A stretch of DNA of 64,000 bases from Solwaraspora sp. WMMD406 (GTDB lineage: Bacteria > Actinomycetota > Actinomycetes > Mycobacteriales > Micromonosporaceae): positions 1,550,001 to 1,614,000 of the forward strand of contig NZ_JARUBF010000001.1 of NCBI RefSeq assembly GCF_029626025.1, given 5' to 3'. Positions 6,685 through 59,557 of this stretch are shown here, piece after piece (positions within the stretch are counted from its first letter, which is position 1; every line of letters begins with the position of its first letter). A model generated the notes under the pieces. The model ran no database searches and was not told where the DNA came from. It saw only the letters and a list, made by a program, of their open reading frames with translations. Both the position numbers and the translations under genes were made by a program.

Positions 6685-6756
6685 GCCCGGCAACGCATCG
6701 GGGTGGGTATCCCCCGTCTCGTCGGACCGCGTGCGCGGGCCGGGCATGATGTGCTG

Positions 6757-7857
6757 ATGCTCTTCGCCGTCATCCCGGCAGGTGGCAGCGGCACCCGCCT
6801 CTGGCCGCTGTCCCGCGCCGGTAACCCTAAATTTCTGCACCCCCTCACCGGCACCGCCGCCTCGTTGCTGCAGGCGACGGTGGCCCGGCTCGCCCCCCTG
6901 ACCGATCCCGAACGGATCCTGGTGGTGACCGGGGCCGCGCACGCCGCCGCGGTCGCCCGGCAACTGGCCTCGGTGCCCGAGGAGAACGTGCTCGTCGAGC
7001 CGTCGCCCCGGGACTCCTGCGCGGCGATCGCCCTCGCCGCCGCCGTCATCGCCCGGCGCGAACCGGACGCGGTGATGGGATCCTTCGCCGCCGACCATCT
7101 GATCGCCGACACCGACCGGTACGCCGACACGATCCGCGAGGCGGTCGCCGGGGCACAGGCCGGGCTGCTGATGACGGTCGGGATCACCCCGACCCGACCG
7201 GAGACCGGGTACGGGTATCTGGCCTGCGGCGAGGCGATCGGACCCGGTCCGGTCCGCCGGGTCGAACAATTCACCGAGAAGCCGGGCCTCGAACTCGCCG
7301 AGAGCTACCTCCGCTCCGGGCGGCACCTCTGGAACGCCAGCATGTTCGTCTGGCGGGTCGACGTGTTCCTCAGCGAACTCGCCCGGCAACAGCCCGAACT
7401 GCACTCCGGGCTGACCCGGATCGCAGCCAGCTGGGACACCCCGGAGCGGGACGAGATCCTCGGCGACGTCTGGCCGACGCTGCCTCGGATCTCGGTCGAC
7501 TACGCGGTGATGGAAGGCGCGGCGGCGGCCGGGCGGGTCGGCACCGTACCGGGCGACTTCGGCTGGAACGACGTGGGTGACTTCCACACCCTCGGTGACG
7601 TGCTGGTGGCCGACGCCGACCGTAACGTCGTCCTCGGTGCTCCCGCCGCCGAGGAAAAGCCAGGTGTGCTGCTGCACGACAGCAGCGGGCTGGTGGTGGT
7701 GCCGCAGTCGGGCCGGCTGGTCGCCGCGCTCGGCGTCCACGACCTGATCGTCGTCGACACCCCGGACGCGGTGCTCGTCTGCCCGCGTGACCGGGCACAG
7801 GACGTCAAGCGCCTGGTCGACGAGCTGAAGGAACGCGGAGCCGACGGCTACGTGTGA
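6757..7857 (+). CDS. manC: Mannose-1-phosphate guanylyltransferase
   Basis: The enzyme forms GDP-mannose from mannose-1-phosphate and GTP. The nucleotidyltransferase signature GGSGTRLWPLSRAGNPKF lies near the N-terminus, where NPKF replaces the more usual PKQ; GYGYL and VEQFTEKPG follow. The protein is 366 aa, the size of the short bacterial enzyme without an isomerase domain. ATG 6757 is chosen; GTG 6751, two codons upstream, is possible. The final 12 codons (DELKERGADGYV) are part of a 47-bp sequence that recurs at 23178, the basis for the proposed island. Together with manB at 61.4 kb this gene supplies GDP-mannose. Confidence 0.93.
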   Translation: MLFAVIPAGGSGTRLWPLSRAGNPKFLHPLTGTAASLLQATVARLAPLTDPERILVVTGAAHAAAVARQLASVPEENVLVEPSPRDSCAAIALAAAVIARREPDAVMGSFAADHLIADTDRYADTIREAVAGAQAGLLMTVGITPTRPETGYGYLACGEAIGPGPVRRVEQFTEKPGLELAESYLRSGRHLWNASMFVWRVDVFLSELARQQPELHSGLTRIAASWDTPERDEILGDVWPTLPRISVDYAVMEGAAAAGRVGTVPGDFGWNDVGDFHTLGDVLVADADRNVVLGAPAAEEKPGVLLHDSSGLVVVPQSGRLVAALGVHDLIVVDTPDAVLVCPRDRAQDVKRLVDELKERGADGYV

Positions 7858-7865
7858 GGTCCGCG
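7819..7865. repeat. Left 47-bp direct repeat (putative attL, overlaps manC 3' end)
   Basis: These 47 bases are identical to 23178-23224. They cover the last 12 codons and stop of manC plus eight bases. Homology continues about 15 more bases with four mismatches, including the convergent fbiB stop codon, and vanishes abruptly on the upstream side. This is the left boundary of the proposed island. Confidence 0.75.
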
Positions 7866-7927
7866 TTCAGCCCGGCGGCGGGCCGGCCGCTGGTCCGGCG
7901 GCGGTCAGTGCCCAGCGGCCGGTCCGT

Positions 7928-8107
7928 TCATTCGGGCCCGCCGGTGTCGTGGCGCAGGATGACGACGGCGATGAGGACGAGGAGTCCGGCGGTGACTAGC
8001 CGCCGGGCACGGTATTTGGCGTATGCCCAGGTCACGCTGTTTCCAGCGTGGAGTATGGCGATGGCGAGCAAGATGATGCCGACTGCGGCGGTGGCAGAGG
8101 TGGTCAT
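7928..8107 (-). CDS. Small two-helix membrane protein (59 aa)
   Basis: A short frame from ATG 8107 encodes MTTSATAAVGIILLAIAILH and continues to a TGA at 7928-7930. Two hydrophobic helices (about 6-22 and 36-52) flank a basic AKYRARR loop. It follows the 8172-8438 gene on the same strand by 64 bases and is likely the last gene of that small leftward unit. No family is recognised. The clear topology and normal codon pattern favour a real gene. Confidence 0.6.
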   Translation of the reverse strand: MTTSATAAVGIILLAIAILHAGNSVTWAYAKYRARRLVTAGLLVLIAVVILRHDTGGPE

Positions 8108-8171
8108 GGGCGGGCTTCCGATGTGGCTGCTGGGGGGTGGTCCGGGTCCGGGGTATGCGGCTGCGATGGGC

Positions 8172-8438
8172 CTACTGCTGTGGTTGGTCGGGCGCGCCGA
8201 GGAGTCCGAGGACGATGAGGGTGTCGCGGGTGGGTGTGGAGCGGTTGACGGCGTCGGCCCATCGACGGTGGGCGCAGGGGTGTGGGACGAGTCGTCCCTC
8301 GAATTGGCACTGCGCGCACATGTTGGTGTCGTCGGGGGTGTGGACCGCGAGGATGGCGTCGGCGGCGGGGGTGAGGTTCGCGGATGGGTGCATTCGGGGC
8401 ACCTCAGTCGGGTGTGGTGGGGTGGGTGTGGTGGTCAC
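8172..8438 (-). CDS. Small Cys/His-containing protein (88 aa)
   Basis: The GTG at 8438 has GGAG five bases upstream and gives an 88-aa protein; an internal ATG (MHPSANL) is an alternative start. The centre reads NMCAQCQFEGRLVPHPCAHR, with C-x2-C followed by H-x-C-x-H, a possible small zinc-binding knuckle. Similar short CxxC proteins are common next to helix-turn-helix genes in Streptomyces and Micromonospora and have no assigned role. It is the first gene of a two-gene leftward unit with the small membrane protein at 7928-8107. Confidence 0.6.
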   Translation of the reverse strand: MTTTPTPPHPTEVPRMHPSANLTPAADAILAVHTPDDTNMCAQCQFEGRLVPHPCAHRRWADAVNRSTPTRDTLIVLGLLGAPDQPQQ

Positions 8439-8641
8439 GCTGCTCCGTCCTGGCTGGTGGGGTTCGGTTCGTGTCGGTTGTCGTGTGGGGTGGCCGCTGC
8501 GATGGGGCGGGGGCGGTGGCCGTATCACCGGGTTTCACGTGTGTGGCTCGTCGGCGTCGTGTGGGGATGGTGTATCGGACGGTCGGGGCGGGTCGAGCGG
8601 TCGTGGATCGGCAGGCGACGGGTGCGTGGGACAACCGGTCG

Positions 8642-9265
8642 TCACCGCCGTTGTCGGCCGTGGGTGCGGGGTTGGCGCCACATGGGCCATACCGGTGGTC
8701 CGTCGTCGGGCAGCCGCGGCGGGGTGGGGGTGGTGTCGTGGTAGCCGAGCCGTTGGTAGAGGCGTCGGGCGGCGTCGCTGGTGGCGACGAGGTGCACGGG
8801 GGTGCCGGCGGTGTCGCAGGTGGCGTGCCGGTGGGTGAGCAGAGCGGTGCCGACGCCTCGGTGTTGCCGGTCTGGGGTGACGCCGAGGTAAGCGAGGTAG
8901 GTGTGCGGCCGGTGTGGGGCGTGCCGGCGTAACAGGGCGGCGAGGCGGGCGAACCGTGGGGTGTGGGGGCCGGCGGCGCGGGCGAACCACGCGGAGTGGT
9001 GGGGGTCTGGGGTGTGGGCGAGGGTGTGGGGCAGCCAGATCGCGGCGCCGGTGTGGTCGTCGGTGGTGTGGACGGTGCCCGCCACGATGGCGTGGGTGAG
9101 GATCGCGGGACACAGCCGCTGGTATATGTGTCGGCGTTCGTCGGGGTCGGGGATCAGCCAGGCGGCGTCGGGGGTGCCGAGGAATGCGTCGACGAGCATC
9201 GCGGCGAGTGTGGGGATGTCGTGGCGGTCGGCGACGCGGATCGCAGTGGTGGGGGTGGTGGTCAC
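8642..9265 (-). CDS. GNAT-family N-acetyltransferase
   Basis: A 207-aa enzyme of the GNAT fold, expected to move an acetyl group from acetyl-CoA to an amine. The acetyl-CoA-binding motif A is seen as LGVTPDRQHRGVGTALL near residues 127-143, with the C-terminal RLYQRLGY block after it. The GTG start at 9265 overlaps the stop of the upstream permease gene by four bases (GTGA), and AAGGAG lies nine bases before it, so the two are translationally coupled. That coupling suggests the substrate may be what the permease carries; this is inference. Confidence 0.85.
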   Translation of the reverse strand: MTTTPTTAIRVADRHDIPTLAAMLVDAFLGTPDAAWLIPDPDERRHIYQRLCPAILTHAIVAGTVHTTDDHTGAAIWLPHTLAHTPDPHHSAWFARAAGPHTPRFARLAALLRRHAPHRPHTYLAYLGVTPDRQHRGVGTALLTHRHATCDTAGTPVHLVATSDAARRLYQRLGYHDTTPTPPRLPDDGPPVWPMWRQPRTHGRQRR

Positions 9266-10779
9266 CGGTGGATCTCCTTACGGGCGGTCGGGGTCGGATG
9301 GGTGGGTCGGGTGACGGCGTCGGCTCCCGCGCCGACGGTGGCCCACACGGCAGGCCGTGTCTGGTGGAGCACGGCCGCCCAGGCGAGGCCACATGTGATG
9401 GCGGCGGCGTAGAGGCCGGGTAGCAGCCACCGGGCCGGTGAGCCGGCGGGGGCGTTGAGGAGGTCACCGAATCCGATGAGGGTGCCGCCGAGGATGAACA
9501 CCAGCAGGTTGAGCGCCGTGCCGGGGGCGAGCGCGGTCGACCAGCGGCTCTCGCCTCGCCGGTGGTGGCGGAAGTACGCGAGGACGGCGAGGCTGGTCGC
9601 GGTCATCAGGATCAGCACGCCCAGGCCACCGGTGACGGTCAGCCAGAAGAACAGATGCACGATCGGATCCAGCCCCGCCAGGGCGTAGACCACGATGATC
9701 AGGCTGGCCACGCCGGTCTGGACCAGGGAGCCGAGCTTCGGCGCCCCGGTCCGACCGTGGGCGCGACCCAAACCAGCGGGGAGGACCTGTTCGCGGCCCA
9801 ACGCGAACAGGTAGCGGGCGACCAGGTTATGGAAGGCGAGCAGGGCGGCGAACAGACTCGTCACCAGCAGCAGCCGGCCGACGTCGATCACCAGGCGCGG
9901 GAGGTGGCCGTCGACCAGGGCGAACATCAACTCCGGGCCGTGCTGGACGGCCTCGTTGACGATGCGGTCGGGGCCGGCGGCGACCTGCATCGCCCACGCC
10001 GACCCCGCATACAACACGGCGGTGAGGGCGATGGCGGTGTAGGTGGCGCGGGCGACCGTACGGCGGGGGTCGCGGGTCTCCTCCGAGAGCACGGTGGTGG
10101 CCTCGACCCCGACGTAGCCGGCGATCCCGCCGACGAGGATCGCCGCCATCCCCGGCACCGCCAGCTGCGCCGGCTCCAACCCGTGCAGTGACAGCGTCCC
10201 GCCGGCCGGGTTGGTGGCCATGACAATGTCGAAGACCACCACGACGGTGATCTCCGCGATCAGCAGCACACCCAGGACTCGGCCGTTGAGGTCGACCCGC
10301 GCCAGCCCGAGAACCGCGACCGCCAGCCAGGCTCCGAGGGCCCACACCCACCACGGGACGCTGACACCGGCCACCGCCGACGCGGCGGCGGCCGCGACGA
10401 CACCGAAGGCCCCGTACAGGCCGATCTGCATCAGGTTGTAGGCGACGACCGCGACGAACGCCGCCGCCACCCCGCAGGCTGGTCCGAGACCGTGCGCGAT
10501 GTAGGAGTACATCGACCCGGCGTTGACGACATGGCGGCTCATGGCGACGTAGCCGACCGCGAACACCACCATCACGGTGGCGGTCGCCGCGTAGGCGACC
10601 GGCACCCCGGTCAGGCCGGTCACCGCGTACGCGGTCGGCACCGCTGACGCGACCACCGTCATCGGCGCAGCGGCGGCAAGGACGAAGAACACCACCTGCG
10701 GCACCCCGAGCCGGGACCTGGCCAGGGCGGCGGCGACACCACCCCGACGCGGACGCGGCACACCACGCGAAACAGACAC
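9262..10779 (-). CDS. APC-family amino acid/amine permease
   Basis: A 505-aa integral membrane protein with about 12 hydrophobic helices, of the amino acid-polyamine-organocation superfamily. The first helix begins after LGVPQVVFFVLAAAAPMTVV, and the consensus GGIAGYVGVEATTVLSEETR of the family lies at about residues 215-235. The start is GTG 10779 with AGGAG seven bases upstream. It is the first gene of a pair with the GNAT gene (4-base overlap). The substrate cannot be told from sequence. Confidence 0.88.
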   Translation of the reverse strand: MSVSRGVPRPRRGGVAAALARSRLGVPQVVFFVLAAAAPMTVVASAVPTAYAVTGLTGVPVAYAATATVMVVFAVGYVAMSRHVVNAGSMYSYIAHGLGPACGVAAAFVAVVAYNLMQIGLYGAFGVVAAAAASAVAGVSVPWWVWALGAWLAVAVLGLARVDLNGRVLGVLLIAEITVVVVFDIVMATNPAGGTLSLHGLEPAQLAVPGMAAILVGGIAGYVGVEATTVLSEETRDPRRTVARATYTAIALTAVLYAGSAWAMQVAAGPDRIVNEAVQHGPELMFALVDGHLPRLVIDVGRLLLVTSLFAALLAFHNLVARYLFALGREQVLPAGLGRAHGRTGAPKLGSLVQTGVASLIIVVYALAGLDPIVHLFFWLTVTGGLGVLILMTATSLAVLAYFRHHRRGESRWSTALAPGTALNLLVFILGGTLIGFGDLLNAPAGSPARWLLPGLYAAAITCGLAWAAVLHQTRPAVWATVGAGADAVTRPTHPTPTARKEIHR

Positions 10780-10863
10780 AACGATCTCCTGACAAAGACA
10801 ACGAGAAGGGATGCGGAGACAGGGCGGGCGTCTGGGTAGACGCCCGAACCGGGCTGGTGGTGG

Positions 10864-11547
10864 TCAGGTCCGGCCACCCAGCACGGCCCGGCCGACCGCC
10901 GCCGCCAGCTCGACCAGCAGCACGTCGACCTGCGCCGGCACCGGACCGACCAGCCGGTCGAGACGCTGCCGCGCCTGCGGACCACCGTCGAGGAACCGGC
11001 CCTCGACACCGACAGCGGTACACAACCGCGCCAAGGCACTGTCGAACACGTCCAGCGGCTCACCACGACGGACGTGGGTCGACAACCGGGCCCACGGCCA
11101 CGCCGCCACGTTCATGTCCGCCGGCTCCCACACCGTCCTGGTCGTCATCAGCCGCCGGACCCGCACCGGCCGCACCACACCGGCATCGGCCAACCGCTGA
11201 CCCACCGCCGGCACCGACACATCAGCGAGAACCTCGATCCAGACCGGAACCGGCTGACCCGGCTCAGCCGCTACCCACGCAGCGACCTGCCCCTCGAACC
11301 CGGCCACCCGCACCCCAGGCTGCGGGCAGTCCAGCCGCCCAGACGCCGTCACCACCAGCACACCCGCCGAGACCAGGTCCGCCAACACAGCGGCAGCCAC
11401 CCCGAATCCGGCGATCCGCGGCGCCAGACGCAACTGACCCGACACGTCATGGTGCGCCATCAGGAAGAAATCGTCCGCCAACAGCTGACGATCAACCGGC
11501 AACGACAACACCGACCGCCAATGGGTTCCGGAGTGGTAGACGGTCAT
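10864..11547 (-). CDS. GPP34 (GOLPH3-like) family protein
   Basis: The 227-aa protein opens with SLPVDRQLLADDFFLMAHHD, followed by a SGQLRLAPRIAGFGVAAAVLAD block, the pattern of the GPP34 domain. In eukaryotes this fold binds phosphatidylinositol-4-phosphate; in actinobacteria it is common and its role is unknown. ATG 11547 overlaps by four bases the stop of a short upstream frame (ATGA). An upstream in-frame ATG at 11568 is possible. The gene lies 84 bases upstream of the permease on the same strand, so one leftward transcript is likely. Confidence 0.75.
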   Translation of the reverse strand: MTVYHSGTHWRSVLSLPVDRQLLADDFFLMAHHDVSGQLRLAPRIAGFGVAAAVLADLVSAGVLVVTASGRLDCPQPGVRVAGFEGQVAAWVAAEPGQPVPVWIEVLADVSVPAVGQRLADAGVVRPVRVRRLMTTRTVWEPADMNVAAWPWARLSTHVRRGEPLDVFDSALARLCTAVGVEGRFLDGGPQARQRLDRLVGPVPAQVDVLLVELAAAVGRAVLGGRT

Positions 11548-11696
11548 CGCGGGTGCCGTCCTGTCCACGATGCGAACGGCTGGTGCGACGCGGCTCGTCG
11601 GTCGCGCAGATCCAGGGCCGGTCGGTGGGGGTTCGGCTTGGTCGCGCAGGCTGGGGAGGCAGCGAGGGCGATCTGCAGCCCGTTAGGTGGCAACAT
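11544..11696 (-). CDS. Possible 50-aa leader-like ORF coupled to the GPP34 gene
   Basis: The frame starts at ATG 11696, has an AAGGGGAAG purine run just before it, and ends in a TGA that overlaps the ATG of the GPP34 gene (ATGA). The peptide begins MLPPNGLQIALAASPA and ends SWTGRHPR, with no recognised family. Coupling and the ribosome-binding site are the only support. Confidence 0.35.
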   Translation of the reverse strand: MLPPNGLQIALAASPACATKPNPHRPALDLRDRRAASHQPFASWTGRHPR

Positions 11697-11727
11697 GACT
11701 TCCCCTTCGACTGGTGCGGCGTGGTGG

Positions 11728-11767
11728 GCCTGCCGTGCCGGTGACGGGGGGCACCGGCACGGCAGGC
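11728..11767. terminator. Strong hairpin, 16-bp perfect stem
   Basis: The arm 11728-11743 pairs perfectly with 11752-11767 around an 8-base G-rich loop. No T-tract follows, as is common for actinobacterial terminators. It lies 31 bases upstream of the small ORF that precedes the GPP34 gene, so it could also be a leader attenuator of that leftward transcript. Confidence 0.55.
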
Positions 11768-12554
11768 TGCTTCGTGCGGGCGAGTCTCTCGTCGACGAGC
11801 AACCTCCGTGACGCTTCCGGCCACAGGCTCGGAAGGACACCTCGTCAGCTGACTTCGAGCAGACCTAGCGAGCGGCATCGGCTCCAAGTGAAAGCGGTCA
11901 TCCAGCAGGTCGTACAGACATGACAGCCACAAGCGACAGTGAAGGAATAGGCGGGGTTGAGCCGGTGGGTGGGCCTCTGTCAAATCGCGAACCCGTGCGC
12001 GGCTCGGCCTGCCAGCTACGACGGGGGTAGACGTGCGCCTGTTCATGTGATGAATCACGACGCAGAGTCGCCCAGGAACTCACGGGGCGGAGTGTCGGCT
12101 GAAGGCAACCTAGGGCACAACCCAGGCAGAGTTACGCTCGGGAACTCGCCTGTATCGTTTAGCGGCTATGTCACTCTTGGCTGTTGCGGCCGGGTGACAG
12201 GGTGATCAATCCGATGGACCTGCCGATTCACCCACTGCACGTGCGATCGGTCTCGGCCTTTCGTACTGGAGCAAGATCGACCGACTGACGGATTCCCGGA
12301 GCGTACCTGCAGCTCCCCGTCCTTGACCGCCCAGCCAGCGGAGTGACAGGAAGGTGTTGAGCACGGACGACCACCACGCTCCTTTGCTGTCACGGTTCTC
12401 TGTCACATCTGGCCGACAGGTGCGCCGATCGGTTGTGCTGGATCTACCGCCTAATCCTGACGGTCTGGATCCAGATGGGATAGGTCAGGCTGAGCTGAGG
12501 CGGAGACTCGGGCAAATGTTGCGCGGGCCAAACCACATCGCGAGGAGGTTGTCA
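11768..12554. other. Gene-poor region upstream of the lanthipeptide-like cluster
   Basis: About 790 bases without a convincing gene; GC is lower than in the flanks. It must hold the promoter for the rightward lan genes, but I cannot place one with confidence. A frame opens from GTG 12354 and reads into the precursor gene in the same frame (67 extra codons), yet its start lacks a spaced ribosome-binding site and the peptide resembles nothing known. Confidence 0.5.
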
Positions 12555-12692
12555 ATGGAAACACTGTCCAACGTGCCGACGGATCAGACCACAGATCTGG
12601 AACCGGTCCTGGATCTGGCTGTGGTAACGATTGGGGAGTCGCCACAGTCGAACGACGAGACGCCGACCTACACCTGCACCGACGGCAAGTAA
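12555..12692 (+). CDS. Putative class I lanthipeptide precursor peptide (45 aa)
   Basis: ATG 12555 follows a strong GAGGAGG site at ideal spacing. The 45-residue peptide has an acidic leader with the segment LEPVLDLAVVTIGES, similar to the LDLD-type or FxLD-type recognition boxes of actinobacterial class I lanthipeptide leaders. The C-terminus TPTYTCTDGK has a single Cys (C41) among Thr residues 36, 38, 40 and 42, so at most one (methyl)lanthionine ring is possible. It is followed by a hairpin and then by lanB and lanC. A FxLD-family assignment is plausible but not exact. No GG or other clear protease site is visible. The role as precursor is inferred from position and the leader motif. Confidence 0.7.
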   Translation: METLSNVPTDQTTDLEPVLDLAVVTIGESPQSNDETPTYTCTDGK

Positions 12693-12702
12693 CCGATCAA
12701 CG

Positions 12703-12745
12703 CGTCTCGCGGTGGCCAGGCAGTCGGCCGGGCCACCGCGAGACG
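12703..12745 (+). terminator. Attenuator-like hairpin between precursor and lanB
   Basis: The 15-bp arm at 12703-12717 pairs perfectly with 12731-12745 around a 13-base loop. It lies 10 bases after the precursor stop and ends before the lanB ribosome-binding site. Such hairpins in lantibiotic operons reduce read-through so that precursor is made in excess over modification enzymes. Confidence 0.7.
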
Positions 12746-12760
12746 TTGAGGAGGCGGATT

Positions 12761-15730
12761 GTGTTTGTCATGCCGAGGATCGCGATGGTTCGGGCGCCGC
12801 TGGCACCGGTGACGGCTCGATCATCGGGGCATTCAGGCGGGGCGGTGGACCCGGTGTTGCGGGAGGCGATCGCGGTCGCTAGCCCGGATCTGGACGCTGC
12901 GATGGAGCTTTCCGACGGCGAGGACCACGCTGATGCGAGGCGTACCGCGTTGGCGGTCGCGGGCTATTCGGCGCGAATGACTTTCCGCGCGACTCCGTTC
13001 GGCCTGTTTTCCGGGGTCACCGCCGCCGGAATCGGAGGCCCTTGGGCACGTGCCCTGTGTGGCGAGGCGCACCAGACGCGAACGCTGCCAGATGGCGGAT
13101 GGCTAGTCGCACTCATGGCGCGCCTGCACCGAGATCTCTCTGTTGTCTCAGGGCTGTACGTGTCGGTTAACCCAACACTGCGGAAACGGGGCGGCCGATT
13201 GGTGCTGCAGCGTTGGCACCAGCCTGACGGCCGGGCATCGTCGCAACTGCAGGAGGTGTCAATCGGCGCTGTCGGTCCAGCGGCTGACGTGTTGCACGCT
13301 GCGGATCAAGAAGTCGCTGTTGCCCGGTTGCTTGCCGAGGCTTCAGGTCCTGACTTGGATTCGGGCTTGCTTATCGTTTCAGAGCTCCTGAAGGCTGGGT
13401 TTCTGCACAGCGAGCTGACCAGGGCTGTCAATCATCGAGATTCGTTACGGGAGATCGAGGGTATACTACAAAGGGTTGCCTCGCCGATCGCGAACGAAGT
13501 CCGTGAGGTTGCGCGCCTTGCACGCGAGTATGACAAACGTTCGCTAGGTAGCGGGCTACCGGCGTTCCGGGCATTGACGCAGCAGATGCAGTTGGTGGCA
13601 GCGGCGCGACACCAGGTATGCGTCGACACGCGACTCGACGCCGAGATTCGCCTACCGCGCGCCGTCGGCGAAGAGGTGCGACATGTCGCAGGACTGTTGT
13701 GGCGACTGAGAGTATACAGTGAACATCCACTGGCTGATTTCCACCAGGATTTTGTCGACCGTTATGGGTTCGATCGGGCGGTACCCGTACTGGACGTACT
13801 TGATGAGTATCGTGGCCTCGGCCTTCCAGTAGGATACGCGGCCGGCCGGCCGCTGCAGTCGTCTCAGTCGCCGGTTCATACCGTACGCGATGGGCAAATG
13901 TTTGCACTGTGGGCTAGGACGGCAGGGCGGGGCGCGGCTCAGGTTTTCTTGGACGAGGATGTTGCTCAGGATTGGTGGGAGGGTTTTCCCCTTTCCGAGG
14001 AGTCGCCTCAGTCGTGCGATTTGTTCGCCAGGCTGGCTGCACGCGATATCTGGGCGATGGCTCGCGGCGACTTTACGTTAGTGGAGCCCTGGTTCAACGA
14101 AGCTCCTGCGACGGCGGGATTTGCCCGATTTCTGGATCTGATTCCAGAGGCGACTACGGCGCTGCAGGAGACTGTCAGGTCGGATCGCACCGGGGATGCG
14201 GGAAGCTGTTTTGCGGAGGTTCAGTTCAGCCCGCTGCAGCCGCGTCTGACCAACGTGATGCGCGCAGGTGGCAGATCGGGGCGGCAGATCTGTGTCGACC
14301 GGGCACCTATAGCGCCCGGTGACATCGCAGTGCGAGATCTGTCGGTGTTCTCTGACGGACGTCGCCTGCACGTGCAGACACAAAACGGTGAGCGCCTGGT
14401 TCCTGTCGCCGGTCATGGCCTCGGACGCAGACATGCACCCGCCGTGGCGCGGTTTCTACTCGAGATTGGGCATAGGCCGCGTCCCCACGGCTGGCAGTGG
14501 GGCAGGCCGCTACAGGAGTACGCCCCGTTTCTGCCACGAGTCTCGGCTGGCCGTAGCGTTTTGGCACCGGCGAGTTGGCTCCTGCCTGCGGCGGTGATAC
14601 AGGCAGCCGGAGACGCGGCGCAATGGCAGTCAGCGCTCGATCGATGGCGGCGCGAGGCCGACCTGCCTGACCGGGTGGAGGCCGGGGCCTCCGACATGCG
14701 CGTACCAGTGGATCTGACCTCTTCGGAGGGAGTCGGCCTGCTACGCAGAGAGGTCAACCTGCATGGGGTGACCAGGGTGCGGGAGGTACTCGATGTGCCT
14801 GATGGGTGGTTGCGCGGTCCAGACGGCTACCACGTGGCGGAGATTGTCGCACCTGTCGTTCCGACCGAACCGCATACGGTCAGCGGGCGGGCGTCGCCCT
14901 CCATTGTCCGGCCGGTGCGTCCCGCCGGGTCGGGGGAACATCTGCCCGGGGCTGGGCGATGGCTCTACGCGGTGCTGCCAGTTCCACATCGCAGCCAGGA
15001 CGATGTGCTCACCGTCCTGGCGAAGGACTTCGCTAGCCATCACCAGAGATGGTTCTTCGTCCGCTACCACGACCATGGCAGTCCATGTCTACGAATCAGG
15101 GTGCGAACGACGCGGGCCGGGCAGGGGACGGTGCTGGGCATGCTTGCCGACCAGGTCTGTCGGTTGCGCGAGGGTGGTCTTGCTGGTGGATTTCGGTTCG
15201 ACACCTACGATCCGGAGATCGAGCGGTACGGCGGCCCTGACCTGATTACGACGGCGGAGGAGCTCTTCTGCGCCGACACCGCCGCTGTTTTAGCGGACAT
15301 CAGCAGCGGGCGGAGCACCGTGGTGACAGCCGCGTTGTCAGTAGTCGGGCTCCTTCACATGCTTGCTCCGAGGGCAGAGGACCGGCGCTGGCTTTCCGGA
15401 ATCAAAGGTCAGCCTGGCCACCATCGAGCACGGGTACGCGCCTTGGCCGTGTCTGGGTTGGACGAATGGCTCGGGCCGGTTGCATCGCTGTGGCGGAGAC
15501 GACTCACCGTCGCCAGCCGCTATGGCAGCCAGCTCGGCCTACTGACGTCTGAGCGCCGCAACCATGTCGTCCGGAGCGTGATTCATATGCACTGCAACCG
15601 GCTGGTGGGCACTGAGCAAAGCATGGAGGCGCAAGTGCTGCGGCTGGCGCGAGACGCTATCGAGACCTGCGTGCGAACCGGGCGACCGTTGACTGCGGTG
15701 TTGGAGGGGCCGACGACATGCCAAGCCTGA
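12761..15730 (+). CDS. Lantibiotic dehydratase, full-length LanB
   Basis: A 989-aa protein expected to use glutamyl-tRNA to glutamylate and then eliminate Ser/Thr of the precursor, giving dehydroalanine and dehydrobutyrine. The N-terminal glutamylation domain carries RATPFGLFSGVTAAG near residues 76-90. The C-terminal elimination (SpaB_C, thiopeptide-type) domain starts near residue 735 (RWLYAVLPVPHRSQDD) with WFFVRYHDHG after it. Both halves sit in one chain, unlike split thiopeptide dehydratases. GTG 12761 is chosen because GAGGAGG lies six bases before it; the in-frame TTG at 12746 would place the site inside the gene. The 3' end overlaps lanC by 13 bases. Confidence 0.9.
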   Translation: MFVMPRIAMVRAPLAPVTARSSGHSGGAVDPVLREAIAVASPDLDAAMELSDGEDHADARRTALAVAGYSARMTFRATPFGLFSGVTAAGIGGPWARALCGEAHQTRTLPDGGWLVALMARLHRDLSVVSGLYVSVNPTLRKRGGRLVLQRWHQPDGRASSQLQEVSIGAVGPAADVLHAADQEVAVARLLAEASGPDLDSGLLIVSELLKAGFLHSELTRAVNHRDSLREIEGILQRVASPIANEVREVARLAREYDKRSLGSGLPAFRALTQQMQLVAAARHQVCVDTRLDAEIRLPRAVGEEVRHVAGLLWRLRVYSEHPLADFHQDFVDRYGFDRAVPVLDVLDEYRGLGLPVGYAAGRPLQSSQSPVHTVRDGQMFALWARTAGRGAAQVFLDEDVAQDWWEGFPLSEESPQSCDLFARLAARDIWAMARGDFTLVEPWFNEAPATAGFARFLDLIPEATTALQETVRSDRTGDAGSCFAEVQFSPLQPRLTNVMRAGGRSGRQICVDRAPIAPGDIAVRDLSVFSDGRRLHVQTQNGERLVPVAGHGLGRRHAPAVARFLLEIGHRPRPHGWQWGRPLQEYAPFLPRVSAGRSVLAPASWLLPAAVIQAAGDAAQWQSALDRWRREADLPDRVEAGASDMRVPVDLTSSEGVGLLRREVNLHGVTRVREVLDVPDGWLRGPDGYHVAEIVAPVVPTEPHTVSGRASPSIVRPVRPAGSGEHLPGAGRWLYAVLPVPHRSQDDVLTVLAKDFASHHQRWFFVRYHDHGSPCLRIRVRTTRAGQGTVLGMLADQVCRLREGGLAGGFRFDTYDPEIERYGGPDLITTAEELFCADTAAVLADISSGRSTVVTAALSVVGLLHMLAPRAEDRRWLSGIKGQPGHHRARVRALAVSGLDEWLGPVASLWRRRLTVASRYGSQLGLLTSERRNHVVRSVIHMHCNRLVGTEQSMEAQVLRLARDAIETCVRTGRPLTAVLEGPTTCQA

Positions 15731-16833
15731 CGACGCTCAGCGCGCAGACCGCGCTCGCGCTCGCGGACCGCCTAACAGATCACCGCCTCAGCTTCGACGC
15801 GATCGCCGATCACCTCGGGGTTGCCACCGTCCACGCGGCCACCCTGCCCTGGAGGCCTACGGCGGCTACCTACGCCAGGAGGCGGCTTGAATCGGCAGCC
15901 CAAGCATTGCCGACGGTGGTCCCCGCTGGCGCCTGGTCCGGGCTGGGCGCACTGCTGTTCGCCCACGGCGCTCTCGCCGCCGCCACCGGCCGCCGGACCA
16001 CGACATACCGGCAAGGGCTCGATCGGCTTACCCGACACGCTCGCGAGTTGGTCACCCGTTACGAGCGCCAACCTGCGGACGTCACCCAACGTGACATCGA
16101 TCTGATCTCAGGGATCACCGGCGTCGGCCGGTTGCTGCTCGACTCTGGGGACTGCCTCACACAGCCGTTACGGGAGATCCTCACCTTCCTTGTCCGCGTC
16201 GTCCACAGAGTACGTGCAGATTTGGGCATGGCGCATGGCATGACGGGGCCGCTGGCGCTACTCGCACTATCCCACGCACGAGGAGTGACCGTATCGGGAC
16301 AAAGCGATACCATCGCTGCGCTCGCGCGATGGCTTCGGACACACCGTCGAGACGATGGGCTCTGGCCCGCCACGGTCTTCGAATGCCCGATGGACACCAA
16401 ACCGGCCGTACCGGGATGGTGTTACGGCAACGCCGGCATCAGCCGCGCGCTTACCCTCGCTGGACGGGCCCTTGCCGACCAGCAGTTGATCGACGACGGC
16501 GTCGCTGCACTCACCGTATTGGCTGAACCCGACGCGTCGATTCCGCCCTTCGCGGGGTCAACGCTCTGCCACGGACGAGCCGGTCTGCTGATGGTCGTCT
16601 GCCGTACCATGGTTGATCACCGGTCTCCTGCCCTCGATGCGTTGGCCGGCCGCCTCGCAGCGGAGATCATCGACGACCTCGCCTCTACCGACGCAGCGCC
16701 TGCTGGCCACGCCGCCGCCGAGATCCGCTCCACTCAACTACTCACCGGTACGGCCGGAATTGCGCTGGCCCTGCTGCAGTACGCATACCCGGACCAACCC
16801 GTCGCCTGGGACCGGTCGTTGCTTCTCTGCTAG
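15718..16833 (+). CDS. Lanthionine synthetase C family cyclase (LanC)
   Basis: A 371-aa zinc enzyme that adds Cys thiols to dehydrated residues to close lanthionine rings. Zinc ligands are visible as WCYGNAG (C235) and LCHGRAG (C284, H285); the conserved histidine of MAHGMTGPLA is H173. Length and repeats fit stand-alone LanC. ATG 15718 overlaps the end of lanB by 13 bases, so the two are coupled. No ABC exporter, peptidase or immunity protein follows; the next gene, 101 bases on, is a dnaE copy. Confidence 0.9.
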   Translation: MPSLTTLSAQTALALADRLTDHRLSFDAIADHLGVATVHAATLPWRPTAATYARRRLESAAQALPTVVPAGAWSGLGALLFAHGALAAATGRRTTTYRQGLDRLTRHARELVTRYERQPADVTQRDIDLISGITGVGRLLLDSGDCLTQPLREILTFLVRVVHRVRADLGMAHGMTGPLALLALSHARGVTVSGQSDTIAALARWLRTHRRDDGLWPATVFECPMDTKPAVPGWCYGNAGISRALTLAGRALADQQLIDDGVAALTVLAEPDASIPPFAGSTLCHGRAGLLMVVCRTMVDHRSPALDALAGRLAAEIIDDLASTDAAPAGHAAAEIRSTQLLTGTAGIALALLQYAYPDQPVAWDRSLLLC

Positions 16834-16842
16834 CCCGGGTCG

Positions 16843-16879
16843 CCGTCGGCGGGTCCGCCGCAATCCGGCGAGCCGACGG
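16843..16879 (+). terminator. Hairpin after lanC
   Basis: Arms at 16843-16850 and 16872-16879 pair over 8 bp, with further partial pairing inside. It lies 10 bases after the lanC stop and upstream of a possible -10 (GATAGT, 16881-16886) for dnaE, which suggests that dnaE has its own promoter. Confidence 0.4.
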
Positions 16880-16934
16880 GGATAGTGTGCTCTCTCGGCC
16901 ACCGCACGGCGTCGCTAGCTAAGGGGTCTTAGCC

Positions 16935-19900
16935 ATGTCCGATTCGTTCGTACATCTGCACACGCACACCGAGTACTCGATGCTCGACGGGGCGGCCCGA
17001 TTGAAGGAGTTGTTCGCCGAGACGAATCGGCTCGGCATGCCCGCTTTGGCGATGACCGATCACGGATATCTGTTCGGGGCGTACGATTTCTTCAAGCAGG
17101 CGACCGGAGCCGGGGTGAAGCCGATCATCGGCTTGGAGGCATATCTGACGCCGGGGACCGATCGGCGGGACCGGACCCGGGTACGGTGGGCCGACGGCGG
17201 GGAGAACGACGTTTCCGGTGGTGGCGCCTACACCCACATGACCATGTTGGCGGCGGACGCCGACGGGCTGCGCAATCTGTTCCGGCTGGGGTCGCGGGCC
17301 AGCCTGGAGGGCTACTTCTACAAGCCCCGGGCGGATCGGGAGTTGCTGCACCAGTACGGCAAGGGGATCATCGCGACGACCGGCTGCCCCTCCGGTGAGG
17401 TCCAGACGTGGTTGCGGATCGGGAATTTCGACAAGGCGTGCGAGTCGGCGGCCGAGTTCCGCGACATCTTCGGCGCGGACAACTTTTATCTGGAGTTGAT
17501 GGATCACGGACTCGACATCGAGACCCGGATCCGGACCGATCTGATCCGGCTCGGTAAACGGCTCAATCTGAAGCCGATCGCGACGAACGATCTGCATTAC
17601 ACGCACGAGCGGGACGCCGAAGCGCACGAGGTGTTGTTGTGTGTCCAGTCCGGGTCGACGATGGCGGATCCCAAGCGGTTCAAGTTCGACGCCCGCGACT
17701 TCTATCTGAAGTCACCGGCCGAGATGCGTAAACTGTGGGACGCCGAGGTGCCGGGGGCGTGTGACAACACCCTGGAGATCGCGGAGAAGATCGGCGACTA
17801 TTCGGCGTTGTTCGCCTCCCGGGACCTGATGCCGCAGTTCCCGGTCCCGGCCGGCGAGACCGAGGAGTCGTTCCTGCGCGCCGAGGTGCTGCGCGGTCTG
17901 GACCGCCGGTTTCCCGGCGGGGTGCCCGAGGGGCACCGCAAACAGGCCGAGTACGAGCTCGACGTCATTCTCAAGATGGGCTTCCCGGGATACTTCCTCG
18001 TCACCGCCGACCTGGTGGCGTACGCGAAACGGGAAGGCATCCGGGTCGGCCCGGGCCGTGGCTCGGCGGCCGGCGCGCTGATCGCGTACGCACTGGGGAT
18101 CACCGAACTGGATCCGATTCCGCACGGCCTGCTGTTCGAACGGTTCCTCAACCCGGACCGGGTGTCGATGCCGGACATCGACATGGACTTCGACGAGCGT
18201 CGGCGCGGCGACATGATCCGGTACGCGACCGAGCGGTACGGCGAGGAACGGGTCGCGCAGATCATCACGTACGGCACGATCAAGGCGAAGGCGGCGATCA
18301 AGGACGCGGCCCGGGTGCTCGGCTACCCGTTCGCGATGGGCGACCGGATCACCAAGGCGATGCCACCGCCGGTGATGGGCAAGGACATCCCGCTGACCGG
18401 CATCTTCGACCCGAAACACCCCCGCTACCCGGAGGCGGCCGAGTTCCGGTCGTTGTACGAGTCCGACGGCGAGGTCCGCAAGATCGTCGACACGGCCAAG
18501 GGCCTGGAAGGACTCAAGCGGCAGTGGGGCGTGCACGCCGCCGGGGTGATCCTGTCCCGCGACCCCCTGGTCGACGTGCTGCCGATCCAGAAACGGGAGC
18601 AGGACGGGGCGATCATCACCCAGTGGGACATGGGCGCCTGCGAGTCCATCGGCCTGCTGAAGATGGACTTCCTGGGCTTGCGCAACCTGACCGTGATGGA
18701 CGACTGCCTGGCCGGGATCAAGGACAACCGCGGCCTGGACCTGGTCCTCGAGGAGTTGCCGCTGGACGACAAACGCGCCTACGAGCTGCTGGCCCGGGGC
18801 GACACGCTCGGCGTGTTCCAGCTCGACGGCGGGCCGATGCGGTCACTGCTGCGGTCGATGGTGCCGGACAACTTCGAGGACATCTCCGCCGTCCTGGCGC
18901 TGTACCGGCCGGGTCCGATGGGCGCCAACGCGCACAACGAGTACGCCGACCGCAAGAACAACCGTAAACCGGTGGTGCCGATCCACCCCGAACTCGCCGA
19001 ACCGCTCGCCGACATCCTGGGCGACACCTACGGTCTGATCGTCTACCAGGAACAGGTCATGGCGATCGCCCAGCAGTTGGCCGGCTACACCCTGGGCGCC
19101 GCCGACCTGCTGCGCCGGGCGATGGGCAAGAAGAAGAAGGAGATCCTGGACAAGGAGTACGTCCCGTTCTCCCAGGGCATGCGGGACAACGGCTACTCCG
19201 ACGAGGCGATCAAGACGCTCTGGGACATCCTGGTCCCGTTCTCCGACTACGCGTTCAACAAGGCCCACACCGCCGGCTACGGTCTGGTCTCCTACTGGAC
19301 GGCCTATCTGAAGGCCAACTATCCGGCCGAGTACATGGCCGCCCTGCTGACCAGCGTCGGCGACGACAAGGACAAAGCCGCCGTCTACCTGGCCGAGTGC
19401 CGGCGGATGAAGATCAAGGTGCTGCCGCCGGACGTCAACGCCTCCGGTGCCCGGTTCACCGCCGTCGGCTCCGACATCCGGTTCGGGCTCGCCGCCGTCC
19501 GTAACGTCGGCACCAACGTCGTCGAGGCGATCGCCCGGGCCCGCAAGGCCAAGGACGCCTACACCGACTTCTACGACTTCCTCCGCAAGGTCGACGCGGT
19601 CGCCTGCAACAAACGTACCGTCGAATCGCTGATCAAAGCCGGCGCGTTCGACTCGTTGGGGCACACCCGCAAAGGGCTGTTGACCGTGCACGCCGACGCG
19701 ATCGACTCGTTCATGGACCTCAAACGCAACGAGGCGGTCGGCCAGTACGACCTGTTCGGCGACGCGTTCGGCGCCGGTGGCGACGCCGGCGCGGGCGGTG
19801 GCATGGTGGTCACCCCGCCGATCCCGGACAGCGAGTGGGACAAGACCGACCTGCTCACCTTCGAACGCGAAATGCTCGGCCTCTACGTCTCCGACCACCC

Positions 19901-20483
19901 GCTGTTCGGGGTGGAACACATCCTCGCCAACGCCGCCGACATGTCGATCGCCGCCCTCGCCGAGGACGGCGCGGTCGCCGACGGCACCGTACTCAACCTG
20001 GCCGGCATCCTGTCCGGGGTGCAGCGCCGGATCACCAAACAGGGCCGGGCCTGGGCGTCGGCCACCCTGGAAGACCTCGGCGGCGCGGTCGAGGTGCTGT
20101 TCTTCCCAAACACCTACGAGGTCGTCGGCCAGTACATCGCCGAGGACGCCATCGTCGTGGTCAAAGGTCGCGTCGACCGCCGCGACGACCAACCCCGCCT
20201 GATGGCCATGGACCTGTCGGTCCCCGAGATCACCGCCGCCGACGAGATCAAACCGATCGTGATCACCCTGCCCCCGGCCCGCTGCACCCCACCCCTGGTC
20301 GAAGGGCTCCGCGACGTACTCACCAGCCATCCCGGCTCCGCCGAGGTCCACGTCAAACTCGTCAACGGCAGCCGCGCCACCCTGCTACGCCTCGGCCCGC
20401 ACCGGGTGGCTCCCACCACCGCACTCATGGCCGACCTCAAAGCACTCCTCGGACCAAGCGCAGTATCGCAGGGTGACGAGTAG
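16935..20483 (+). CDS. dnaE: DNA polymerase III alpha subunit, DnaE1 type (possible second copy)
   Basis: A 1182-aa replicative polymerase subunit. The N-terminal PHP domain keeps all nine metal-ligand positions of the proofreading mycobacterial DnaE1 (H9, H11, D18, H43, E68, H101, C151, D219, H221). The polymerase core has GPGRGSAAG (372-380) and the catalytic PDIDMDF (D414, D416, D418). The C-terminal OB-type region runs from about 990. This is a full, apparently active DnaE1-type enzyme, not the mutagenic DnaE2 form. It follows lanC by 101 bases inside the island, away from the genes that usually accompany dnaE1 in actinobacteria. It could be the only dnaE, a duplicated copy, or a resistant target copy protecting against the neighbouring peptide; the last is inference. 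Confidence 0.92.
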
Positions 20484-20617
20484 TATGGCTCCGCGTTGGT
20501 CCGGAGGGTCGATCAAACCCGGTGCGGTGGTACTGGACACGGCCGCCGACATCTGCAGTGAACTGGGCCTGTCGCTACACAGCCCGCCCGGCGGTGAGGG
20601 CCGTGGACATCGTGTGT

Positions 20618-21541
20618 CTACAGTCTGCGGTGATCCTCCAGAATTTCGACAAGGTTCCCGCTGGGATCCTTGACAAATAGGTACGACACTCCGGTGTTGC
20701 CGACGCGAGGGGCTACCACGACTGGTATCCCGCGTGCACTCAGCATTGTCATGGCTTCTTCCAGCGATGCCACTTGAAGCGCGAGATGCTTCCAGCCAAT
20801 CCTGGGCAAGTCTGTCGAAAGTTCGCTTGCTGATTGTGGCGCGGCAATATGCTGGTGATACTTCCAGATCTCCAGGAAGGCATTGCCGAGTTTCAGGTGT
20901 GCGATTTCGAAGCCGCCGTCGGGATCGACGTATTCTAGCATTGGGCGAAATCCGAAGTGCCCGTAGAACCGAATCGATTCAGAAATGTCATCAACACTCA
21001 CGGCGACGTGATGGAACCTAAACGAAGCCATGGCGACATGGTGGTGTTCGCGTACAGGAGATCCTGACGGCCGAGCCGTTACCACCTGCCTCGGCTGCTC
21101 TGGAAAATTGACTTCATCGAACAGAATCCATTCGCTGACGGCGACCTCATACATTCGGATATGTGTGTCACCGTGGGCGATAAGGTATGGATCAAGAGCG
21201 GGCCGAGCTGCCGGCCAGCGCTTGACGAACGTTTCAGCCTCGGGACCGATTCCGTGGGTAGCGAGTTCGCGGGCGACGCCGGTGAAGGTAACGCCGCGAA
21301 CCTTCTGTCCCAATCCTTCTAACGGCATCGCGATGATGCTTCCCGCCACGCGTGCATCGTTGCGAATGCTGGCGCTGTGCAGCCGATCATCGCGGGAAAT
21401 AAATCGAAGAATGTCGGGATCAAAATGGGCGTCGTACCACACGTTGCTTACAGACGGCCAACCGTCGGCAGCCAACGTCGCGAGTTGCATGAGCTTGCCG
21501 CAACGGACGTACTCTTCGAGCAGTTCGCGTAGGTTCGTCAC
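20618..21541 (-). CDS. Pyridoxamine 5'-phosphate oxidase-like/VOC domain fusion protein
   Basis: The 307-aa protein has two domains. Residues about 1-150 resemble the PNPOx split-barrel flavin/F420-binding family (LMQLATLAADGWPSVSNVWY, then a VAGSIIAMPLEG block). Residues about 180-305 are a VOC (glyoxalase-fold) domain beginning FRFHHVAVSVDDISESIRFY and ending VKDPSGNLVEILEDH. The GTG start at 21541 overlaps the stop of the upstream regulator by four bases, and GGAGGTG precedes it. An F420- or flavin-dependent redox step on a small molecule is possible. The fusion is unusual; both domains lie in one uninterrupted frame. Confidence 0.75.
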   Translation of the reverse strand: MTNLRELLEEYVRCGKLMQLATLAADGWPSVSNVWYDAHFDPDILRFISRDDRLHSASIRNDARVAGSIIAMPLEGLGQKVRGVTFTGVARELATHGIGPEAETFVKRWPAARPALDPYLIAHGDTHIRMYEVAVSEWILFDEVNFPEQPRQVVTARPSGSPVREHHHVAMASFRFHHVAVSVDDISESIRFYGHFGFRPMLEYVDPDGGFEIAHLKLGNAFLEIWKYHQHIAAPQSASELSTDLPRIGWKHLALQVASLEEAMTMLSARGIPVVVAPRVGNTGVSYLFVKDPSGNLVEILEDHRRL

Positions 21542-23004
21542 TGGGCACCTCCATGCTCGATCGCAGTCACGGTGAGTTGCGGTTGTCTGAGGGAATGAAG
21601 AACCTCTCGCCATTGTCGTGCTGGCTCGCCGGATTCGGGAACAAGGCGATCGAACTCTCGCGCCCGGCGGATAACTGTAATGCCATGGTATGTGTGGTGA
21701 TCCAGGATTGCGCCAGTGGCAATGCGGCATGCCTCGGCTACCTCGCCGGATTGAGCGTAGGCGCTGGCCTGCTCGAACCGGGCCAGTGCCGGCTCGGTGG
21801 TTTCGTGGAGATCATAAAGGCTGATGGCACGCTCTGCGGCTACCGACGCCATGTCAGCGTTCCTTAGTTCCACCCAGCCGCGGGCCTCGTAGAAGGCAAG
21901 CTTCTCCGGAAGAAACGAGAATATTCCTGGCTTGACGAGGTCCTTCGGTGACCGATCGAGGACGTCTCGTGCGCGTTCGATCGATCTCTGGAAAGCGTTA
22001 GCGTCGGCCAACATGGCGTGTGCTTTAGCTCGGAACGCCCACAGCCAAGCAATGGCCGGCGATGGAGAACGAGCACCGTCTAGGCGCGGGATCACGCTGG
22101 CGAGGACGGCGCGCGGGTCAGAGGTGTAGGTCGGCAGGTAGGTGTTACCGGCTAGCGCGATGTCCGCCAGGAACTGATTGCCAGCCTCTTCTGCGGCTCG
22201 GCGGGCAACGGCGTACCAGTGGGCAGCCAGAGGAAACTCCCCCTGATTGAATAGGATCTCACCGGTGATTGTCGCGAACATTGCGCCATAGATGGAAAGC
22301 TCTCGCTGGGAGCGCAGCGTCTGCTTTGTCTCCAGGAGCCTTCGCGTGTTGCGGAACTGCCAAAGTGTTTGGGCGAGCACTGTCGCAGGAGGAACCCTGA
22401 CTACCTGTACCCCCAAATCTGCGGCCTCCCTGCCGATGGCCTCCAAGCGCGCGGCGCTGATAGATCCTCGATCCAGCGCTTCGTGCATACGACTAGGCTC
22501 AGACCACAACCTATCCAGAAATGCGGCCGCCATCACCGCGCCGCCCATCTGAACCACTCCACGACGATCCACTGCTGCTGCCTCCTCGTTCCCTGGCGGG
22601 TTCTCACTCGCAACCATCTGGGAGCCGTCGACTGCTTGCTCGCCAGGACTCGCCAAGGAAAAGGGCTCAGCTGCCGACACGTCGCTGTGATCGGGTGCGC
22701 GTCGCCTTGCACGCTGGAAGCGTTCGTCCCGTTGGACCTGTTGCCGGTGCTTGACGATCAAATCCTGCAACCTGTCGTACTCTGCGACAAGACTGCCCTG
22801 GCAGCCCAGTTCCTGATCGCACGTCGCCCAGAAGGCCTGAGATGCCTTTCCGGATCCCGTTTCGACGCTTGCGACAGTGCTACGGCTGTAGTTGATTTGG
22901 CGAGCCAAGTCGGACTGGCTCCACCCGGTGGCATTTCGCGCGATGGCAAGCCTGAGACCGAGACGCCGCCGTGCCTCCGCGATCTGATCCTTGGTCACCA
23001 CCAC
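21538..23004 (-). CDS. XRE-family transcriptional regulator with TPR-like C-terminus
   Basis: A 488-aa protein. The N-terminal helix-turn-helix spans about residues 10-65 (LRLAIARNATGWSQSDLARQ followed by INYSRSTVASVETG). The remaining 300 residues are helical and TPR-like, a common actinobacterial layout for regulators that sense peptides or small ligands. GTG 23004 is preferred because GGAG lies six bases upstream and the HTH follows at the usual distance; the open frame extends a further 41 codons upstream. Its end overlaps the PNPOx-VOC gene, so the two are cotranscribed leftwards. A role in regulating the lan genes is a guess from proximity. Confidence 0.8.
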   Translation of the reverse strand: MVVTKDQIAEARRRLGLRLAIARNATGWSQSDLARQINYSRSTVASVETGSGKASQAFWATCDQELGCQGSLVAEYDRLQDLIVKHRQQVQRDERFQRARRRAPDHSDVSAAEPFSLASPGEQAVDGSQMVASENPPGNEEAAAVDRRGVVQMGGAVMAAAFLDRLWSEPSRMHEALDRGSISAARLEAIGREAADLGVQVVRVPPATVLAQTLWQFRNTRRLLETKQTLRSQRELSIYGAMFATITGEILFNQGEFPLAAHWYAVARRAAEEAGNQFLADIALAGNTYLPTYTSDPRAVLASVIPRLDGARSPSPAIAWLWAFRAKAHAMLADANAFQRSIERARDVLDRSPKDLVKPGIFSFLPEKLAFYEARGWVELRNADMASVAAERAISLYDLHETTEPALARFEQASAYAQSGEVAEACRIATGAILDHHTYHGITVIRRAREFDRLVPESGEPARQWREVLHSLRQPQLTVTAIEHGGAQ

Positions 23005-23177
23005 AACAGTCTCCACCACCAGACCATGATGAGACCATGGTCGGCTGTCGCTTCTGTGTCGCATCTTCCTGCCGTCTGTAGGCGACAGGCCACGACCCAT
23101 GGCCTTCACGGTGTCACTACCTGCCACCGCCAGGTCGATTCAAGATCGTCGGGTGCTCGTCGTCAGCCGATTGCGTG

Positions 23178-23224
23178 GACGAGCTGAAGGAACGCGGAGC
23201 CGACGGCTACGTGTGAGGTCCGCG
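23178..23224. repeat. Right 47-bp direct repeat (putative attR)
   Basis: Identical to 7819-7865. Here the block is a detached fragment of manC: 12 in-frame codons and a stop without the rest of the gene, starting abruptly at 23178 and running into the convergent fbiB end at 23226. This shows that the fragment derives from the manC-fbiB junction. Confidence 0.75.
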
Positions 23225-23225
23225 C

Positions 23226-58948: not shown

Positions 58949-59557
58949 CGGCCGCCCGCAGGATCGGGGGCTCGTGGCCGCAGCGCGGTAGCCTGTCGCC
59001 CGACGGCGTCCGAGGCACGGGGGCCGGCGACGCGGGAGGCGAGGCGGCACATGGCGGTACGTCGTGGCATGACCCGACTGACGATGGTGCTGCTGTTGAC
59101 CGCCGGAGTGGCGGTGGCCGCCGCGAGTCCCGCGTACGCCCAGGACGAGCAGGTACGGGTCCAGCTCGGTCTGCCCGGCAAGTTCACCGCCGGTGAGAAG
59201 GCCGGCGGGGTGACCGTCAAGGTGACCAAACGCACCGAGGGGTGCGTGTCGCTGCGGACCGCCCTGGCGATCCGACTGCCCGGCGCCACCCCGGACCTGG
59301 TGGCGGTGCAGGCCCGGATCGACGACGACTGGGTGAACGTGCCGGTGACGGACAACGGCGGCGGCCTGCTGGTCACCGACCGGACCGCACCCGAAGACGA
59401 CGAGCTGTGCAAAGGCAAGAGCCGCACCACCCGATATCGGATGGCGTTCCTGGCCGGGGCGCCCGCCGGCACCGCCAACATCGTCGCCGAGGCGTACACC
59501 GCCGGCGGTGAACTGCTCGGCCGGGCGGCCGGAGCGAAGAAGGTCGGCGGCCGGCTA

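Follow-up and report, generated by a model that had tools for sequence, protein, structure and literature searches.

Gene content of the island

The window, by which we mean the whole 64-kb stretch of DNA that was analysed, carries an island between manC and the convergent gene fbiB; the genes and boundary features are compiled in Table 1. Judged by its gene content, the island is a class I lanthipeptide cluster that also includes a permease, a GNAT acetyltransferase, a GPP34-domain protein, a regulator and a full-length dnaE, while the precursor peptide is a candidate. The elements by which class I is recognized are present: a LanB with both dehydratase domains and a LanC cyclase. The unusual part is that the dnaE of this lanthipeptide cluster has become almost identical to that of its host.

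Table 1. Features of the island and its flanks. Coordinates are positions in the window; G001 and G004 are congeners, and G486 is a distant actinomycete of the same class.
Feature	Coordinates	Strand	Evidence
manC, intact, left flank	6703..7857	+	ORF; 90-92% protein identity in 6 congeners
Left 47-bp repeat copy (manC 3' end + 8 bp)	7819..7865		Identical to 23178-23224; 2 genome copies
Diverged fbiB 3'-end trace	7866..7897		Moderate support: shuffle tests
Small, probably membrane protein, 59 aa	7928..8107	-	Codon-position GC; PHROGs: none
Small Cys/His-containing ORF	8172..8528	-	Pfam none; 8143-8471 80-82% to G004/G001 DNA
GNAT acetyltransferase	8642..9265	-	PF13508 1.7e-08
Amino-acid permease	9262..10779	-	PF00324 9.3e-20
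GPP34-domain protein	10864..11568	-	PF05719 1.6e-27
Terminator-like hairpin, end of congener-shared part	11726..11767		95-98% to G004/G001; fold z -4.5
Candidate lanthipeptide precursor, 45 aa	12555..12692	+	Good ribosome-binding site before ATG; weak similarity to G486 candidate
LanB, full-length lanthipeptide dehydratase	12746..15730	+	PF04738 8e-133, PF14028 1.2e-38
LanC cyclase	15718..16833	+	PF05147 4.4e-33
Second dnaE (DNA polymerase III alpha)	16935..20483	+	99.4% DNA identity to chromosomal dnaE, N45Y
PNPOx-glyoxalase fusion	20618..21730	-	PF01243, PF00903
HTH + TPR-like regulator, NsdA family	21538..23127	-	PF13560 1.1e-11; NF053720 1.4e-31
Right 47-bp repeat copy	23178..23224		Exact repeat comparison
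fbiB, right flank	23226..24413	-	ORF; 64-66% in congeners

The DNA from the precursor candidate through LanB to LanC has a G+C content of 61-67%, against 70-73% just outside the island. Of the 354 family genomes, 122 others have a LanB match, and the island LanB shares no more than 37% identity with any of these; it is 35-37% identical to the two other matches (E <=1e-90) among 394 genomes of the class. An initial search of named genomes with LanB gave no relative. The similarity between the precursor candidates of the island and of G486 is equalled by 19 of 2000 shuffles, and neither has an NCBIfam match. Among the nine island proteins searched, none matched the FxLD methyltransferase family (TIGR04364).

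The left part of the island is shared with the genus. The GNAT-permease-GPP34 stretch (8.66-11.55 kb) has a counterpart of 85-86% identity in both G001 and G004, with a LanB match some 6 kb away; in G004 this LanB is accompanied by an FxLD methyltransferase. With at most two places scored per genome, at least ten other genomes of the family (G001, G004, G097, G139, G163, G164, G167, G209, G253, and G286) have permease and LanB matches no more than 14 kb apart, and the two matches are far apart in others, e.g. G174, G178, G230, and G284. Since roughly one such near pair is estimated to arise by chance, we take the left part to be a probable component of the lanthipeptide cluster. The hairpin that ends the shared part was considered as a dispersed repeat and rejected, its 15-base arm being present in 6 of 286 loci, all at this spot of the genome under study, G001 or G004.

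Two further observations concern the congeners. G001 has a second GNAT-permease-GPP34 block about 5 kb from a second dnaE of 59% identity (L270, G001:C1:5004001-5023000), and the congener loci with the shared block (L115 and L116, from G004 and G001, respectively) lie near integrase- and transposase-like genes. Elsewhere in the window, a 374-aa transposase-like ORF (59639-60763) is located between 39-bp inverted repeats that are 97% complementary; we take this element (59550-60804) to be IS630-like.

Direct repeats at the island ends

The island is bounded by a 47-bp block that is identical at both ends and cannot be extended exactly by even one base on either side. The base preceding it is C at the left copy and G at the right copy, and the congeners also have G. 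Except for a tandem array at 50.2-50.9 kb, the block is the longest exact direct repeat in the window; that array (50255-50942) is composed of 9-bp based units with periods of 45, 63, 144, and 234, presumably as in a collagen-like repeat protein. The whole genome (7.16 Mb, 3 contigs) contains only these two copies when up to three mismatches are allowed. A degenerate 42-mer of the manC 3' end, scanned with at most three mismatches, is matched in 58 of the 354 family genomes, singly in 57 and twice only in the genome of the window; the remaining 296 genomes give no signal either way.

At the left end manC is intact. The right copy, separated from manC and directly touching the convergent fbiB stop, holds no more of manC than its final dozen or so codons. 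Next to the left copy, just beyond the 47 bp, about 32 bp may be what is left of a diverged fbiB end, for which the support is moderate: 14 of the first 19 bases past the left copy agree in register with the fbiB end (equalled by 3 of 20000 shuffles), and the local alignment of 7866-7965 with 23225-23324 has a score of 21 (equalled by 10 of 1000). An alignment begun at the manC stop, which includes eight of the identical bases, was equalled by 0 of 1000 shuffles. The fold of the repeat, considered as an att-like structure, is unremarkable (z -1.27), and no RNA family reached the gathering score in the range 4000-28000, which takes in both island ends.

A preliminary description of the window had reported the identical blocks, had read the right one as a detached manC fragment that meets the convergent end of fbiB, and had seen a diverged fbiB trace beside the left one. 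The exact repeat and the detached fragment are borne out, and the trace is retained with moderate support, the in-register agreement being stronger than the local alignment. The diverged tail at the left, together with the differing base before the block, is what a single crossover within the 47 bp would leave if the host junction met another junction of slightly different sequence, and it would fit a site-specific enzyme and homologous recombination alike.

Insertion at the manC-fbiB junction

In all six congeners (the other genomes of the genus), manC is directly convergent with fbiB, that is, the site is empty. When the window flanks are joined by removing one repeat copy and 15.3 kb, they align across the junction in one piece, at 80-81%, to each of the three congeners used for this comparison (G001, G004, and G006). 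The empty sites, together with the collinear joined flanks, support an insertion of 15,359 bp at this junction. The size of 15.4 kb proposed earlier was right in its coordinates, 7819..23224, which count both repeat copies; the insertion proper is shorter. Integration at the junction, the central proposal of the preliminary description, thus finds support in the relatives: the 15 kb are not common to all of them, nor is the 47-bp block a dispersed repeat. The proposed comparison, whether the same block flanks other cargo in relatives, was negative: each of the 57 other family genomes in which the block is detectable has a single copy.

Direct contact between manC and fbiB looks like a genus trait, since at the 30 loci of other genera fbiB is either more distant from manC (L045, L046, and L047) or has no match within 1.5 kb (the remaining 27). 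In two of these, L045 and L046, a short gene lies between manC and fbiB.

A search for tyrosine and serine recombinases identified ten PF00589 and seven PF00239 places in the genome and none inside the island, in agreement with the early remark that no integrase was recognised in it. The nearest PF00239 place is a resolvase-family gene (G000:C1:1544796-1545212) about 12.6 kb to the left of the island and outside the window. Apart from the housekeeping-type dnaE, no replication or conjugation gene is found among the families matched by the island ORFs searched.

Several sources and routes were considered and rejected. A transposon insertion is at odds with the 47-bp duplication and with the lack of a transposase among the island families matched, and an island at a tRNA site with a window devoid of tRNA. 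A phage origin of the left end (7760-8640) was dismissed for lack of a phage match, and the viral contigs gave zero exact matches to the degenerate manC 3' end. Regarding plasmids, LanB reached 31.5% as the top value among the best 15 of 49 records, all 49 of which are below 60%; for the left part, ten listed records of 58 gave 64-68% with no more than 28% of the query covered, and another of the 58 falls in the 80-90% band. The earlier suggestion that a protein-gene end served as attachment site holds insofar as integration took place there. In the strict sense it finds no support, with no tyrosine or serine recombinase found inside the island, no second duplicated block among the 58 family genomes in which the block is detectable and no exact viral match.

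We propose that incoming DNA, probably circular, brought its own copy of a manC-fbiB junction and underwent one crossover with the chromosome. Such an event would account for the two identical blocks, for the undamaged manC and for the diverged remnant of fbiB that follows the left block. The enzyme responsible was most likely a site-specific recombinase with its target at the manC 3' end; its gene would since have been lost from the island, or it would have acted from elsewhere. Alternatively, a circle with some 80 bp spanning the manC-fbiB junction, captured from a related strain, could have entered by RecA-type homologous (Campbell) insertion, and no dedicated recombinase would ever have been involved. 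The lack of a recombinase match in the island agrees with this, as does the homology, which seems to pass the 47 bp into the fbiB tail in the manner of a captured chromosomal junction and unlike a phage-type attachment site. However, a stretch of 47 identical bp offers very little for homologous recombination to act on, and so little of manC is found in the right copy that we consider this route unlikely, though deserving of some weight.

A different possibility is that the insertion is not mobile at all and that, through replication slippage or break repair, a break at the junction was mended with foreign DNA and its ends were duplicated by copying. This would account for the absence of mobility genes among the families matched and for the composite content, in which the left part resembles the host genus and the middle is foreign. 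But a single duplication event does not explain both a diverged left tail and the identical 47 bp beside it, and integrated islands typically show just such a perfect duplication, of similar length and placed at a gene end; we judge such an origin quite improbable and retain entry by a recombinase-made crossover.

The island dnaE and the chromosomal dnaE

The two dnaE genes match without gaps over 3,517 bp at 99.37% identity, starting with base 2 of the start codon and ending about ten codons short of the stop, whereas the dnaE genes of the congeners are only 90-91% identical in DNA. Upstream of the start codon the island and chromosomal genes differ, and from position 3489 differences pile up in the last 60 bp, where the stop is shifted and the gene end is still partly alignable. 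Blind capture of a chromosomal segment is unlikely, because the identity starts at the start codon and ends in this accumulation of differences. The island DnaE has an altered start codon and C-terminus besides the single substitution N45Y; its C-terminus is of the family housekeeping type, unlike that of most second copies with 58-61% identity.

From position 2 to position 3488 the two genes differ at 20 sites, and all but the one behind N45Y are silent (probability 5e-11 were every site equally free to change). As polarized with the congener rows L119-L124 only, some rows of the alignment (L131, L135 and others) being out of frame, eight of the 20 changed on the chromosomal side and three on the island side, and nine are unclear. 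The island gene thus keeps the genus base at eight sites where the chromosomal copy has changed, against three in reverse, and so was not copied from the chromosome of today. The differences also crowd towards the 3' part: a cut at position 2290, chosen after viewing the data, divides them 5 to 15 (p 1e-4). Ten fall within 450 bp (p 0.003) and 11 within 600 bp (p 0.007), but the clustering test fails for a 300-bp window (p 0.06); congener dnaE variation is overall not higher in the 3' part.

Asn45 follows the motif TDHG, which we take to be that of the PHP domain; the solved DnaE chain 7pu7_A, presumably M. tuberculosis DnaE1, has an Asn at the aligned position. The reading of N45Y as a conserved resistance residue finds no support, since Asn is found in 39 of 39 readable rows (of 54 others) and in the cluster-linked DnaE of G486.

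From these comparisons we infer that the cluster dnaE was overwritten by the dnaE of this species or of a near sister strain, perhaps as a mosaic. The cluster would have arrived with its own dnaE behind lanC, and the imported gene would later have been replaced by host-lineage dnaE from near the start codon to a point between codons 1115 and 1163.

Occurrence of the lanB-lanC-dnaE order

The order precursor candidate-LanB-LanC-dnaE is common to the island and to G486, in which an FxLD methyltransferase follows. A tree of 102 LanBs places the island protein and that of G486 as sisters, with a support of 0.78. The linked dnaE of G486 is divergent, with 61% identity to the other copy of that genome over the first piece, and is split across two overlapping frames in the available sequence. 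It is the only dnaE near LanB in the 12 LanB neighbourhoods compared; G348, the next LanB in the tree, has no dnaE at its LanB locus. A second scan of named genomes, by two-row alignment, retained 80 of 113, and none of these 80 LanB loci has a dnaE within 10 kb on each side. The link between lan genes and dnaE is therefore seen in two cases only.

Second dnaE copies also occur without LanB: in 13 other genomes of the family, the 14 stretches surrounding them gave no LanB match. The second copies of the 13 family genomes examined are 58-68% identical to the island dnaE. With at most two places scored per genome, 23 of the 354 family genomes, that of the window included, have two dnaE places at E <=1e-300, and all seven genomes of genus g14 are among them.

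In a rival origin, the dnaE of this lineage would have been duplicated and the new copy would have landed behind lanC by chance, with no earlier foreign dnaE. Its close identity to the chromosomal gene, far above the congener level, and its housekeeping-type C-terminus would be expected of such a copy. On the other hand, the identity sets in with the start codon and is lost over the final codons, even though the two gene ends can still be aligned in part, and G486 has the same order with a dnaE. A plain duplication is, in our opinion, rather improbable, and overwriting of an imported dnaE remains our preferred explanation.

Discussion

Taken together, the data may be read as a horizontally acquired class I lanthipeptide cluster that entered by one crossover made by a site-specific recombinase and whose own dnaE was later overwritten by host-lineage dnaE; we give this combination an even chance of being correct in all its parts. 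The island adds a protein-gene end, that of manC, as an insertion site.

To our knowledge, few natural products hit the alpha subunit of the bacterial replicative polymerase. Nargenicin is an example of such an inhibitor and is reported to bind DnaE1; a dnaE homologue, narR/ngnU, lies beside its cluster and has been proposed as a decoy (PMC8922275). The island, like G486, has in its cluster an extra copy of dnaE, the presumed target gene. By analogy, the island dnaE is possibly self-protective, probably as a decoy or a resistant target copy against the product of the cluster itself. This analogy is drawn from gene content. Among open-licence papers, judged by titles and abstract openings, no lanthipeptide cluster with dnaE was found, a weak absence. 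Against self-protection, the host-like copy is not an obvious resistant variant.

In a further reading, the lanthipeptide would halt DnaE1 and the island dnaE would be a decoy. Since such a decoy could do without resistance, its replacement by host dnaE, even time after time, would do no harm or might be favoured by selection, and the immunity gene of a mobile cluster would be re-tuned to the polymerase of each new host, a proposal that we regard as speculative and distinctly unlikely. Lanthipeptide genes accompanied by their own dnaE would suggest that the peptide inhibits the target of nargenicin, and the near-complete homogenisation with host dnaE would show a self-protection gene adapting after transfer. 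The lanB-lanC-dnaE order can be used as a search rule.

Compared with known systems, the island resembles the integrative elements of actinomycetes and other integrase-type islands (ICE, IME, and CIME) in its direct repeats at a gene 3' end, the gene left intact and the empty site in relatives. It differs from them in lacking a recognised integrase, replication or transfer gene and in using the end of a protein gene instead of a tRNA. With the FxLD-type class I clusters it shares LanB, LanC and a short precursor candidate, as well as the permease that is found near LanB elsewhere in the family; however, the TIGR04364 methyltransferase of the G486 and G004 clusters is not matched among its nine proteins searched, and its LanB stands apart from every other found. 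As for narR/ngnU, the likeness lies in an extra dnaE adjoining an antibiotic cluster (PMC8922275). The differences are that the island cluster is of the lanthipeptide and not the macrolide type, and that its dnaE, at 99.4% identity, is not clearly different from the housekeeping gene.
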